Of a stretch of DNA of 64,000 bases, positions 19,971 through 26,893 are shown in pieces. The DNA lies in contig NZ_CP123228.1 of the NCBI RefSeq assembly GCF_029855045.1, forward strand, positions 124,001 through 188,000, read 5' to 3'. Below the pieces are notes generated by a model. That model ran no database searches and was not told the DNA's origin. It saw only the letters and a list, made by a program, of their open reading frames with translations. Numbering within the stretch: the first letter of the stretch is position 1; every line of letters starts with the position of its first letter. The translations under genes were made by a program, and so were the position numbers. Source of the DNA: Piscinibacter sp. XHJ-5 (GTDB taxonomy: Bacteria > Pseudomonadota > Gammaproteobacteria > Burkholderiales > Burkholderiaceae_C).

Positions 19971-20849
19971 TCAACGCAGGGCGTGGTCGACGACCACGCC
20001 GGCGAACACCGCGAACCCAAGCCAATGGTTCAGCCGGAAGGCGCGGAAGCATCCGTCGCGCGAGCGGGTCCGTATCAGCGTGAAGTGCCACGCCGCGACT
20101 GCGCCGCCGACCGCGAGTCCCGCGTAGTACGGCCATTCGAAGCGCAGCTGCAAGCCCAGCGCAGCCCAGATCGCGAGATAGATTCCGTAGAACAGCATCA
20201 CGCCCGCCACGTCGAAGCGGCCGAGCGTGATGGCCGATGTCTTGAGGCCGATCTTGACGTCGTCGTCGCGATCAACCATCGCGTACTCGGTGTCGTAGGC
20301 GAGCACCCAGAACAGATTGCCGATGAGCAGCCACCACGCGAGCGCCGGCACTTGGCCCTGCACCGCGGCGAAGGCCATCGGGATGCCGAAGCTGAAGGCG
20401 ACGCCGAGCACCGCCTGCGGCATCGAGAAGAAGCGCTTGGTGAACGGGTAGAAGACGCTGACAGCCAGCGCCACAAAGCTCCATGCGATGGTGGTCGCAT
20501 TGGTGGTCAGCACCAGCCCGAAGGCGGCGAGCGCGAGCGCGGCGCCCAGCAGCAGTGCTTCCTTCGGACTCACCGCGCCGCTGGTCACGGGGCGCATCGC
20601 CGTGCGCTTCACGTGCTTGTCGAAATCCCGGTCGGCGACGTCGTTGACGGCGCAGCCGGCGCTACGCATCAGGAAGGTGCCGAGCACGAAGACGACCAGC
20701 AGGTGCCAGCCGGGAAAGCCCCGCGCCGCGATCCACAATGCAGCGAGCGTCGGCCACAGCAGCAGCCACGTGCCGGCCGGGCGATCCCAGCGGATCAGGT
20801 TGAGGTACAGCGCCATGCGCGAGGACGGTGCAGCAGCGGACGTCGACAT
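19971..20849 (-). CDS. ubiA: UbiA, 4-hydroxybenzoate polyprenyltransferase
   Basis: Attaches the polyprenyl tail to 4-hydroxybenzoate in ubiquinone synthesis; an inner-membrane enzyme with about nine helices. The 292 residues hold both Asp-rich motifs: NDVADRDFD, and [12 protein letters not shown], which bind the prenyl diphosphate through Mg2+. The ATG at 20849 gives the family N-terminus ([21 protein letters not shown]); sequence upstream in frame is not protein-like. It stands alone, convergent with gdhA. Confidence 0.95.
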
Positions 20850-20928
20850 GGTCCGGATTGTCTCGCTTCGCGCGCAGCGGTGGCCGCACGCAAGTGCTGC
20901 GACCAGAGGCTGCGATGAGCGCCCAGGC

Positions 20929-23900
20929 TCAAGGACCCGACACGACCGGGCACACCGGCGGCTTGGCGGGCAGGCTGTGCGAAAACCCCTTGTCATTGGT
21001 GGCCACTTCCGTCCGCTTGACGATCTCGCCGTCCTGGACGTTGAAGCTCCCCGCTGCGTTGGGCTTGACGACATATGCGAGGACGTTCTGCTGCGCCGGG
21101 GCCGGCAGTTCGTACAGGCGATTCTGGTACGTGTACACCGAGCCGCCGGCCTTCTCGTCGCAGCGCGGTTCGCCGGGCGTGTAGGCGCCGCTCAGTTCGA
21201 CCGAATAGTTGATGCAGCCTTGGGGAGGGCACGAATGGTATGTGTCGAGCTCATCGGCGCCTGGGCATGCGGGGTCGCCGGGGCAGCTGCCAATCGGTGC
21301 GACGCCTCGTGCGTTGTCCGCATCCTGCATGACGTAGAAGTACAGCATCCCGATGTCCCGGTCGTACCAGTACTTGGTGAAGCTGGCGGGAGTCCCGTCG
21401 GCGTTCGTCACCTCGGACAACGAGGAGGCCGCCGTGAGGGTGCTCACGGGGTAGATGCACTGGCGCGTCGCCGCATCGAGGGTCGACGGCGGTGGGCAGC
21501 TGCCGTCAGCCGGAGCGGGCGTGACGCCGTGGGCCGGGCAACCGGTCGCACCGAAGTTCTGCGTCGGATTCTGATGGTCGAGGTTGTGGCAGAACTCGCC
21601 ATTGAAGCGGTTCTGCAGCTGGTTGTAGAAGGGCTGCAGCAGGGGGTTGTTGAAGCTCACCCCGTTGCCTCCCCATGACTTGTAGCCGCGCCGGATGGTG
21701 AAGCTGCCTGTCGGCGTGGCGCCGCCCGCGTCGGTGTAGCAGATGCCGATGCGCACGTAGAACGGGCGCGACGCCATGTCAGGCTTGACCGCGTCGGTGA
21801 AGCCCACCCGCACGATGCTCGGAATGCCCGCAGGGCCGGCCACGACGCCCGGCACGCTCGATGGGAATGCCTTCAGCACCGAATAGCCGAAGCCGCTCGT
21901 GACCTTGGGTTCCCAAATGCCCTGGCCGTTGCGGCCGAACAGGGTCATCGACTGGTGCTTGCCGTAGTCGAGCGAGTCCTTGAAGAAGCTGAGGTCCTGC
22001 CAGTTCTGCCCCGCCGGGCCCCCCGGCCACAGGGCCTCGAACTCCAGGGTCGCCATGTTGCCCGGTGAGATGAGCGACGTCGCCCGGCCCTCGAACTGCT
22101 GGTCCTGTTGCCCGGCAGACAGGCACTCGTCGACGGAATTCGACGACGCGTTGAAAGGGAGATTGTTCAGCGAGATGGGGAAGGAGCCGGGCACTGGATT
22201 GCCGGATGCGTCGACCACCTTGAAGCCGGTGAGCGAACCATCCAGATCGATCAGCGCGGTGTTCTGGTCTCCGTCGCGGAAGTCGCCGAGGTTGACCTTC
22301 GAGGTGTAGATCTGATGCCGCAGATCGACGTTGTGGAACCGCAGGCCCTTCACCGTCGTGGCGGTCGGATAGGCACTCTGGTTGTTCTGGAACCAGCCCA
22401 GCGCGGCATCGCCCTCGTATCCCGTCGTACCAGGATGGGGGTAGGCCACGTAGGCTGCGAGATGGTCGCGATCGTCCTTGGTGAGCAGCGGTGACGGGTC
22501 CCGCAAGAAGTTGACGAAGCGCGTGTCGACGATGCGCACCGGGCCGTCGTAGATCATGTAGCCGGCCGAGTTCCAGCGCGGCGTCTGGTAGCCCTTCTCC
22601 ATGATTTCGTTCGCCAGCGGCTGCAGATCGACGCAACCGGGACCATCGCCGAGGCTGGTGCTCGGGCATGGTCCCCAGCGGTCGACGTTGTTGGCGCTGA
22701 CACCGACCACGACCGAGTCCTTCAGCAAAGCCCAGACCCCCGGCGCGTTGCCGTCGTTGCCTCCGGAGCTGACCAGGGTGACGCTATCGCGGTTGGTGGC
22801 GAAGCGACCGTTCTCGACCACGGACCACATGGGTCGCATCCAAACCCCGCGGTTGCGGTTGCGTGTCGCGGTGAGCCCGCTGAAGCGACCGATGACATTG
22901 ACCGAGGTCGGCTCCGCCGTGCTCAGGCCCCCGACCGTGGGGAACAGCTGGTCCGACACCGTGCCGAAATGGCCTTCGCTGAACAAGCCGTCGTAGCACG
23001 CATGCACGCGGTTGTTCACGAACCTGCCGCTCGGATCGAACTTCCGAGCGCCCGTCGACCCATCCGGCGGCGGCACATACCAGTACCCCTTGCCGACGCC
23101 CTGGCAGCCGCCGATCGAATTGCCCTGCAGCTTTGCCGATGGATGGGTGATCCAGAACCCACTGGCCGGCTCGATATAGAAGTGATCCGTCGCGCACGGG
23201 GCCGGGCCGACCAGGTCGACTCGGCCGTCGCCGATCCCGCTGCGCACGAAACAGGCGCTGTGCGTCGGATTGCCCTGGCTGTCGGTGTTGACGACATTGA
23301 ACGCCGAGTAGCCGTTCTCACGCGCGAGGTTGTCGCCTTCCCAGAAGTTCCTGGGCGAGCCGTCGGTCGTCCTGGCCACGGAGTCGGCAATGCCGAAATG
23401 GTGGCTCATCGCGCCCAGACCCAGATTGCCGACGTAGGCCGTGTCGATCTCGTTGCCCATCTCCTGGTAGAAGAGATGCCCGACCGCGCGCGCACAGACG
23501 TTGTAGCTGATCGTGAGGTTGCTTGTGGCGTGCACCGCGACGCACTTGTTGTAGCTGTGGTGGATGCTGTTGGATTCGATGACCGGCTCGTTGCGCACGT
23601 CGCCGGCCATGTGGAAGTGGATGGGGTATGCCCCCAGCCTTTCCTTGCCGAACTTCTCGAACTCCACGCCACGCACCCTGACCGCGTCGAAGCCGGCGCA
23701 CAGACGCATGTCGCCGCCCCAGTGCAGGCGTGTGTCGTGCGCGGCGATGGCCGGATCGGGCGTCTGCGCGGTCAGGCGGATGTTGCGCGACACGAGTCCG
23801 ACCTCCGCGCGCTCGTCGACCCCGAAGTTTCTCGTGCTGTCCGCGCCGAAGCCATCTGGCCCTGGTACGCCCGGGTCCTGGCTGCCGAAGTGATAGTGCC

Positions 23901-25023
23901 GCAGCGGCTGACGCAAGGTGACGACGCTGCCTTGGACCGCAGGTGCGACGCTCGCGATCTGCACGAACTCGGTTTCGAAGGGACTGAAGCTGGAGGTGGC
24001 GATGGTGATCCAGTCGCCCGCCTTCCACGGGTTCGAGCCCTTGCTCACGTCGCGCGCGAGGAAGATCCTGGCTTCGCCGCCGGCATCCACCGGTGCGCCG
24101 ATTCCCTTGTCGGTAGCCTGATACGCCGGCGGCCCTGCCGGCTTGGCGAGATGCGTCCAGCTGACGCCGTCGGGGGCGCTGGCAACGCCGCGCGCGCCGT
24201 GCATCAGCAGTTGGCCGCCGGCGGTGACGACGATGCCCTTGTCGGCCGCCTCGCAGGTGTGTGCTCCCAGGGACGGCGGTGGCGTGGTCGGCCCTTCGCC
24301 GACGAAGCGCAAGGTCAGCGTGTGGTCCGGGTCGTCGGTGCCGATGGGGCAGCTCTCACTGCCGGCCTGCACCAGGCCCGAAACGGTGAGCGAGGCGAGA
24401 TCCACGCTGCGCGTCTCGTCCAGCAGGTACAGCACTCCTGCGGCCTTGACCGTCACCCGGCCGAGCGCATCCGCGCCGGTGAAATCACGGTCCACGTGTG
24501 CCGACTCACAGGCCAGACCGGGGCCGATCTCGACGTCGCCATTGGGCGCTCGACAGCTCGACAGCGGTTGCGTCGCGGCGCGCAGGTCGGCGTCGCTCTG
24601 TGCGCAGCTGCCCACCAGCTGTGAGGAGCGCACGCGCAGCGTCAGTTCGTGGCGCGTCGCGTGCGGTTCATCGTCGATGTCGGCGGCGACCAGCGTGATC
24701 GGGTACGTGCCGGCGTGGCTTTCGTGCGGGTTCAGCTCGAGAGTGGCCGTGCCGTCGCCGTGGTCGGTGATTCGAGCGAACGCCGGCAGGTTCTCGGCCT
24801 CGAAGCTCACCGGTGCGCCTTCGGGGTCGCTGGCCCGGATGGTGACCGAGGTGATCTGCCCGGTGAGTGCCACTGCATGGAGCGGTGCGACGATGACCGG
24901 CGGCCGATCTGCGCCTGCCGAGCAGGCTGCGACCATGGCCACCACGACGCTCAGGATCCCCAGCAGCCGCCGACCTGATCCGTGGTTGTTCCGGGCCGGT
25001 ATACAAGCGATGGATCGATTCAT
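20929..25023 (-). CDS. Large lipoprotein with G8 domain and CEMIP/TMEM2-like beta-helix
   Basis: A 1364-residue exported protein. A lipoprotein signal ends in VAAC with C34 as lipidated residue. A cadherin/Ig-like fold follows at about 41-130. A G8-like domain (about 190-400) ends in the pattern [21 protein letters not shown] and [15 protein letters not shown] right-handed beta-helix (about 400-900) holds PIHFHMAGD (H469, H471, D475) and [12 protein letters not shown] (487-498). These last blocks closely resemble the animal hyaluronan-binding/degrading proteins CEMIP (KIAA1199) and TMEM2. A Cys-rich C-terminus contains a YHSCPPQGC segment. The ATG at 25023 has GGGAG nine bases upstream; a GTG 18 bases earlier is possible. 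A surface polysaccharide-binding or -cleaving role is inferred. Confidence 0.8.
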
Positions 25024-25213
25024 GCTGGCCCACTCCCGCACGCAAGGTTTGCCACACCTTGCGATGTCCCATTGCGATGCTCGAGCGCAACAGGCCGACG
25101 GCCCCGCGGCGGATCTCGCCGTGTACTGCGCTCAGAGGCAGTAGGCGCGCGACCGAATGACGAGTGGTGACTGATTCGTGACGATTCGGATGCCGGGCGT
25201 GGGGCGCGCCGGC

Positions 25214-26827
<1,614 letters not shown>

Positions 26828-26893
26828 GGAGCTGCAGCCTGCACAGACCGGCTGCCGGGTGAAAGAGCCTCGATTATCGAGGACACTCGCCCG

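Follow-up and report, generated by a model that had tools for sequence, protein, structure and literature searches.

The window analyzed here, a stretch of 64,000 nucleotides from Piscinibacter sp. XHJ-5 (contig NZ_CP123228.1, positions 124,001 to 188,000), carries a gene for a predicted G8/CEMIP-type lipoprotein of 1364 residues related to human TMEM2 (CEMIP2). The coordinates proposed for it by an earlier sequence-only reading fit a single open reading frame, which lies on the minus strand; the plus strand of 20929–25023 holds no gene, its frame being interrupted by stops. An alternative GTG start gives a frame at 20929–25041 (1370 codons), while the ATG at 25023 gives the 1364-residue protein. 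The gene is present as a single copy in its own genome (6.65 Mb, one contig). Its features are as follows:

20929..25023, minus strand: G8/CEMIP-type lipoprotein gene, 1364 residues (open reading frame, Pfam, homologues)
24922..25023, minus strand: signal peptide and lipobox, Cys34 with Ser at +2 (pattern match)
24598..24921, minus strand: immunoglobulin (Ig)/cadherin-like N-terminal domain, residues 35–142 (weak Cadherin_4 and Big_9 matches; stretches of giant frames in relatives)
24148..24465, minus strand: G8 domain at the start of the beta-helix, residues 187–292 (Pfam)
23425..23817, minus strand: proposed catalytic stretch, residues 403–533 (invariance; same residues in TMEM2, read by eye)
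23281..23721, minus strand: CEMIP_beta-hel, first Pfam stretch, residues 435–581 (Pfam)
23611..23628, minus strand: YPIHFH, residues 466–471 (invariance alignments)
23530..23568, minus strand: conserved 13-residue block, residues 486–498 (invariance alignments)
23461..23481, minus strand: GHLFYQE, residues 515–521 (invariance alignments)
22990..23172, minus strand: CEMIP_beta-hel, second Pfam stretch (Pfam)
22234..22275, minus strand: 14-residue block common to TMEM2, residues 917–930 (sequence matches to TMEM2)
21079..22146, minus strand: C-terminal beta-sandwich region, residues 960–1315, matching TMEM2 974–1184

A lipobox follows the hydrophobic signal and marks Cys34 as the anchor by pattern match, in agreement with the earlier call of a lipoprotein. 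Under the E. coli rule, Ser at +2 of the lipobox is expected to direct sorting to the outer membrane; the protein may be placed there and exposed on the cell surface. The cadherin/Ig-like domain of the sequence-only reading is weakly supported: residues 35–142 match Cadherin_4 (E = 0.01) and Big_9 (E = 0.013), both below the families' own cut-offs. Among the best 120 of 383 relatives, four (P0002–P0005) appear to keep this domain, since their alignments span 99–100% of the query, and most of the others align over less of it. Stretches matching the domain also occur within open frames of about 3,000–14,000 codons in relatives, which are perhaps giant adhesins.

The other two parts of the architecture read earlier, a G8-like domain and a beta-helix, are both recovered. 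The G8 match (PF10162) is marginal for the window sequence, at 21.2 bits (E = 2.7e-4, hmmscan) just below the cut-off of 22.9 and at 25.8 bits, above it, in a six-frame search of the whole genome. The CEMIP_beta-hel family (PF24606) scores 130.6 bits against a cut-off of 27.3 over residues 435–581. Both families were matched at E <= 0.01 in 32 of 32 scanned proteins, namely 24 of the long form (window protein included) and 8 of the short form described below. The AlphaFold2 model of residues 150–1349 (model numbering plus 149 gives the residue numbers of the window protein) is a right-handed beta-helix with a mean predicted local distance difference test score (pLDDT) of 90.2 and a predicted template modelling score (pTM) of 0.91.

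These matches confirm that the window protein belongs to the G8/CEMIP beta-helix superfamily (PF24606 plus PF10162). The kinship with CEMIP/TMEM2 claimed by the sequence-only reading is found at the level of sequence, profile and structure, and the motifs on which it was founded do resemble those of TMEM2: PIHFHMAGD (residues 467–475) aligns with TMEM2 PVHFHLCGD, and the block 487–498 with TMEM2 IHHSFSRCITVH. The TMEM2 chain is the top structural match to the model, with 25% identity across the aligned residues. Because it leads the next chain by 10 Z units and is also recovered by sequence alone in a search of the PDB, a chance resemblance between beta-helices can be ruled out. Like the ectodomain of human TMEM2 (PDB 8c6i) and CEMIP (KIAA1199/HYBID), the window protein combines a G8 region, a helix and a post-helix beta-sandwich in the same order, with YPxHxH, IHHSxxxCxxxH and GHxFxxE blocks in the beta-helix followed by a DGDxN...DxDGS block. 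Unlike both, it lacks the GG (lectin-like) domain 1; it further differs from TMEM2 in having a predicted lipid anchor where the latter has a transmembrane helix, an additional N-terminal Ig/cadherin-like domain and 26 cysteines beyond the anchor Cys. The structural alignment ends short of the final part of the ectodomain. As regards the second, C-terminal lectin-like domain, the TMEM2 alignments end at TMEM2 1184–1194, and not appearing in such a list is no proof of its absence.

More distant likenesses are of two kinds. Fibrocystin (PKHD1) and similar proteins are described as having G8 domains followed by parallel beta-helix repeats, as in the window protein, but are far larger multi-domain animal receptors (PMC13424714, in the part cited); the likeness is one of described domain order. 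PL6 enzymes, the K1 capsule lyase, AlgG and polygalacturonases have the right-handed beta-helix in common with it at the level of the fold, and none gave a sequence match to the window family in the PDB searches. A recent transfer from an animal is not favoured, given the 25% identity to TMEM2 (the PDB chain of which is the eukaryotic term of all these comparisons), the absent GG domain and the exclusively bacterial origin of the named relatives among the best 120 of 383.

The animal-like character emphasized by the sequence-only reading thus stands as kinship, but the window protein is not a lone case. At least 383 relatives of this long form were recovered from 7992 scored candidates, the nearest with 82% identity among the best 120 of 383. 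A search with an 859-residue Sphingomonadales relative returned at least 5247 (7996 scored; the best 120 of 5247 are considered below). Bacterial relatives are numerous, and JGI and NCBI records already name some of them after CEMIP. Among the matches listed, no open-licence PMC paper has a bacterial G8/CEMIP protein as the subject of its title or abstract opening, and a 2026 review of microbial hyaluronidases, in the part cited here, assigns CEMIP and TMEM2 to humans (PMC13113925). The short Sphingomonadales proteins (e.g., from Alteraurantiacibacter, 859 residues) are about 500 residues shorter than the window protein; they have PF24606 and G8, the same invariant residues and no GG domain. 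Against TMEM2, a profile built from 28 short proteins reaches 381 bits (862 positions), and the long-form profile 231 bits (1334 positions). Therefore, by profile score, the Sphingomonadales branch is closer to TMEM2, and that of the window is a more distant cousin rather than the nearest bacterial one.

The mark of the long form is a set of 19 cysteines (window residues 494–1288), each conserved in at least 109 of 117 members and probably engaged in disulfides; the median cysteine count is 27 in the long form versus 6 in the short form. Pattern matching detects a lipobox in 37 of the 120 long-form proteins listed (the true start may be missing from some of these 120), as against none of the 120 short ones. 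Named long-form loci number 22, a lower bound since they were found by patterns from two conserved stretches only. They come from Xenophilus, Variovorax, a Rubrivivax metagenome-assembled genome (MAG) and MAGs labelled at higher ranks (Deltaproteobacteria, Burkholderiales, Proteobacteria, Binataceae, Methylomirabilota, Gammaproteobacteria and Nitrospirota). All belong to the same subfamily as the window protein, with best-segment identities of 38–58% in 20 of the 22 and of 73% and 31% in the other two. From coverage, most of those among the best 120 of 383 appear to be without the N-terminal Ig/cadherin-like domain. In the nearest named relative, the Rubrivivax MAG, the gene spans two frames, of 935 and 508 codons, that overlap (L017:9491–13637), either a disrupted gene or an assembly error. 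In a MAG labelled Deltaproteobacteria, another CEMIP-type gene, which is divergent and 1418 codons long, lies about 3 kb from the long-form gene (L028:16778–21034, minus strand). Short CEMIP-type genes also occur in multiple copies in two genomes of the same phylum (L048–L052), with three matches in G424 and six, some of them two per protein, in G452.

The GG domain 1, which follows G8 in TMEM2, is absent from the window protein and the bacterial relatives compared. In animals the domain is reportedly required for breaking down hyaluronan. Long-form profile positions 194 to 215 correspond to TMEM2 chain residues 163 to 332, and short-form positions 177 to 183 to residues 167 to 337. Between the equivalents of W289 and W333, the 114 aligned bacterial proteins have 24–54 residues in the long form and 22–23 in the rest, a slot too small for the domain when compared with the about 170 chain residues that separate the two matched stretches of TMEM2. 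Nor do the three Pfam families matched by the 32 scanned proteins include a model of the GG type. By the cited portions of the TMEM2 literature, this domain is where the reported inactivating point mutations of TMEM2 and CEMIP lie; located in it are R265C, D273N and D286N of TMEM2, R187C/H of CEMIP and, in mouse TMEM2, the H248N/A303F pair (PMC10206443, PMC10276149). In the same portions, Niu et al. consider Arg265 unlikely to take part in catalysis (PMC10206443). As the bacterial members lack the site of these mutations, hyaluronan cannot simply be transferred to them as the substrate. By the same absence, we infer that the enzyme core is ancestral and that GG was added later in the animal branch.

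To locate a candidate active site, we jointly aligned 60 long-form proteins (each second of the 120 listed), 40 short-form proteins (each third of 120) and 14 other bacterial proteins. Within each of the three groups, 38 positions are at least 90% identical, 21 of them polar or aromatic. Residues 403–533 hold 12 of these 21 (D403, R405, R413, E454, Y466, H469, H471, H498, H516, E521, E525 and N533), including all four histidines, with W289, W333, D337, W624, N635, N671, N838, D926 and C967 lying elsewhere. All 12 are identical in TMEM2, as read by eye from the printed alignments, and the invariant set is retained between branches of 25–28% identity. Of the charged or histidine invariant positions, 10 of 12 fall in residues 400–535, a region comprising 126 of 634 well-filled columns (binomial p = 4e-6, a guide only, as columns are not independent and the stretch was picked after looking). 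In the model, H469 and H471 lie in the strand 468–475, H498 in 495–501, H516 in 516–520 and E454 in 453–456; as such strands stack in a beta-helix, the histidines would form an exposed ladder with Tyr466 and Glu521 alongside. We propose the 403–533 cluster as the candidate catalytic site of the whole CEMIP/TMEM2 family.

The setting of the gene bears on its origin. Its position is defined by these features:

20823..25217, strand not applicable: block separating prfC from ubiA, lacking a counterpart in four other genomes of the genus (genome comparisons)
25214..26830, minus strand: prfC (release factor 3), upstream flank, start estimated (Pfam RF3_C, GTP_EFTU)
19971..20852, minus strand: ubiA (UbiA prenyltransferase family), downstream flank, start estimated (Pfam UbiA)

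The sequence-only reading had placed the gene alone beside housekeeping genes and suspected an acquired or lineage-specific gene; the housekeeping neighbours are borne out by Pfam, and acquisition agrees with the genome comparisons. The neighbours by Pfam include, besides release factor 3 and UbiA, a Glu/Leu/Phe/Val dehydrogenase, a formamidopyrimidine-glycosylase, a DJ-1/PfpI protein, a ferritin-like protein and a LysR regulator. Each of the four other genomes of the genus has the same prfC and ubiA (86–89% and 79–82% DNA identity, respectively), with the matches separated by 76 bases in G004, about 120–140 in G003, about 190 in G002 and about 1550 in G001, as compared to about 4.4 kb in the window genome. 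Acquisition is thus supported by four of four congeners that are without the gene and have its flanks close together, and the gain of a one-gene block is the simplest account; a fourfold loss, though possible, would be a less simple one. The corresponding gap of G001 contains a reverse transcriptase gene in place of the G8 gene (L067:3416–4582; RVT_1, 64.5 bits), so that this gap appears to take varied cargo.

PF24606 is found in one of five genomes of the genus, the window's own, and in 9 of 299 family-sample and 3 of 398 phylum-sample genomes, its own counted in each. A survey of the Burkholderiales likewise found the long-form model in 3 of 399 order-sample genomes, at full length only in its own. 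G051 has a long form at 49% identity, so the family has other long-form carriers. No operon or polysaccharide locus was found around the CEMIP-type genes in the loci examined. Across 37 loci (the 22 named long-form loci and 15 others, L027 and L032 being a nearly identical stretch), none of the 25 largest protein clusters from a simple gene caller except the CEMIP-type protein occurs in more than four. The commonest family among 62 long-form neighbours (two nearest per side, 110–1100 residues, from 20 of the 22 loci, L024 and L027 excluded) is MFS_1, seen three times (25 of 89 Pfam families listed). No family occurs more than once in 38 scanned short-form neighbours, i.e., 41 from five loci minus three CEMIP-type proteins (25 of 47 families listed). 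The role on a surface polysaccharide suggested earlier accordingly draws nothing from these neighbourhoods.

On balance, we lean towards a carbohydrate-active enzyme: the window protein would be an exported and lipid-anchored member of the G8/CEMIP beta-helix superfamily, rich in cysteines and with its active site on the helix. In this proposal, the G8 region would open the right-handed beta-helix, and a polysaccharide chain, most likely one containing uronic acid or N-acetylhexosamine, would sit along the outer helix face. It would be cut or modified there at the invariant residues on consecutive turns (Tyr466, His469, His471, His498, His516 and Glu521), with preceding turns contributing Asp403, Arg405, Arg413 and Glu454. 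The GG-free core would represent the ancestral enzyme, with GG added in the animal branch. The gene itself most likely arrived between prfC and ubiA as a single-gene block. More tentatively, the 403–533 cluster may be the catalytic site for the entire CEMIP/TMEM2 family, acting GG-free in bacteria on a uronate-containing polysaccharide of bacterial or plant origin, with the animal hyaluronan enzymes being this ancient core plus a GG positioning module.

Several points weigh against this enzymatic reading. The literature matches listed report no activity for any bacterial member, and the neighbourhoods examined show no conserved gene partner. In the parts of the reports cited here, human TMEM2 is inactive in two studies (PMC10206443, PMC10276149), and Niu et al. 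2023, who detected no TMEM2 activity, were unable to place an active site by comparison with known helix enzymes, in which the sites are found near the middle of the helix or its C-terminal part (PMC10206443). The C-terminal tail of mouse TMEM2 is reported as required, and a need for G8 in HYBID is cited (PMC10276149, likewise in part); the published evidence thus reaches beyond the helix. Moreover, a shared pocket of the invariant residues is read from the strand pattern of the model only, and these residues may serve folding or metal binding rather than catalysis. The main rival, which we regard as unlikely though a serious contender, sees a non-enzymatic surface adhesin or glycan-binding scaffold, whose helix binds a polysaccharide or partner protein and whose invariant residues keep a structural metal in place or stabilize the fold. 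The inactivity of human TMEM2 in those two studies suits such a scaffold, as do the kinship of the Ig/cadherin-like domain with stretches in giant frames of relatives, the 19 conserved cysteines, which speak for a rigid extracellular body, and the presence of the non-enzymes Vag8, NosD and adenovirus LH3 among the structural beta-helix matches. However, as is usual for an active site, the invariant set abounds in His, Glu, Asp, Arg and Tyr, which lie on consecutive turns, and it persists across the divergent branches.

Two further enzymatic alternatives appear improbable to us. One is a non-cleaving enzyme that modifies polysaccharide, for instance a uronate C5-epimerase like AlgG or AlgE. The other, to which we give even less credence, follows the CEMIP name used in databases and takes the protein for a hyaluronidase active on animal hyaluronan. 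The homology across most of the TMEM2 ectodomain favours it, but the GG domain with the equivalents of R265, D273 and D286 of TMEM2 and R187 of CEMIP is absent, making hyaluronan a disfavoured substrate. Further, the habitats in the record titles of the 22 named loci are groundwater or lake, with most titles giving none.

The carbohydrate-active enzyme that we favour would matter chiefly because the hyaluronidase status of TMEM2 is itself disputed: against the two studies that found it inactive, another calls it a bona fide hyaluronidase in the part cited (PMC10474455). The analysis offers a concrete candidate site, proposed from conservation, for a family in which the TMEM2 structure paper could assign none. 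A GG-free bacterial core could be produced in E. coli and assayed, with the residues common to bacteria and man providing a short list of mutations. Such an assay would give a tested function to a bacterial family of thousands, some of which go under an untested animal name. If the proposal is true, the bacterial proteins could settle experimentally whether TMEM2 is an enzyme.
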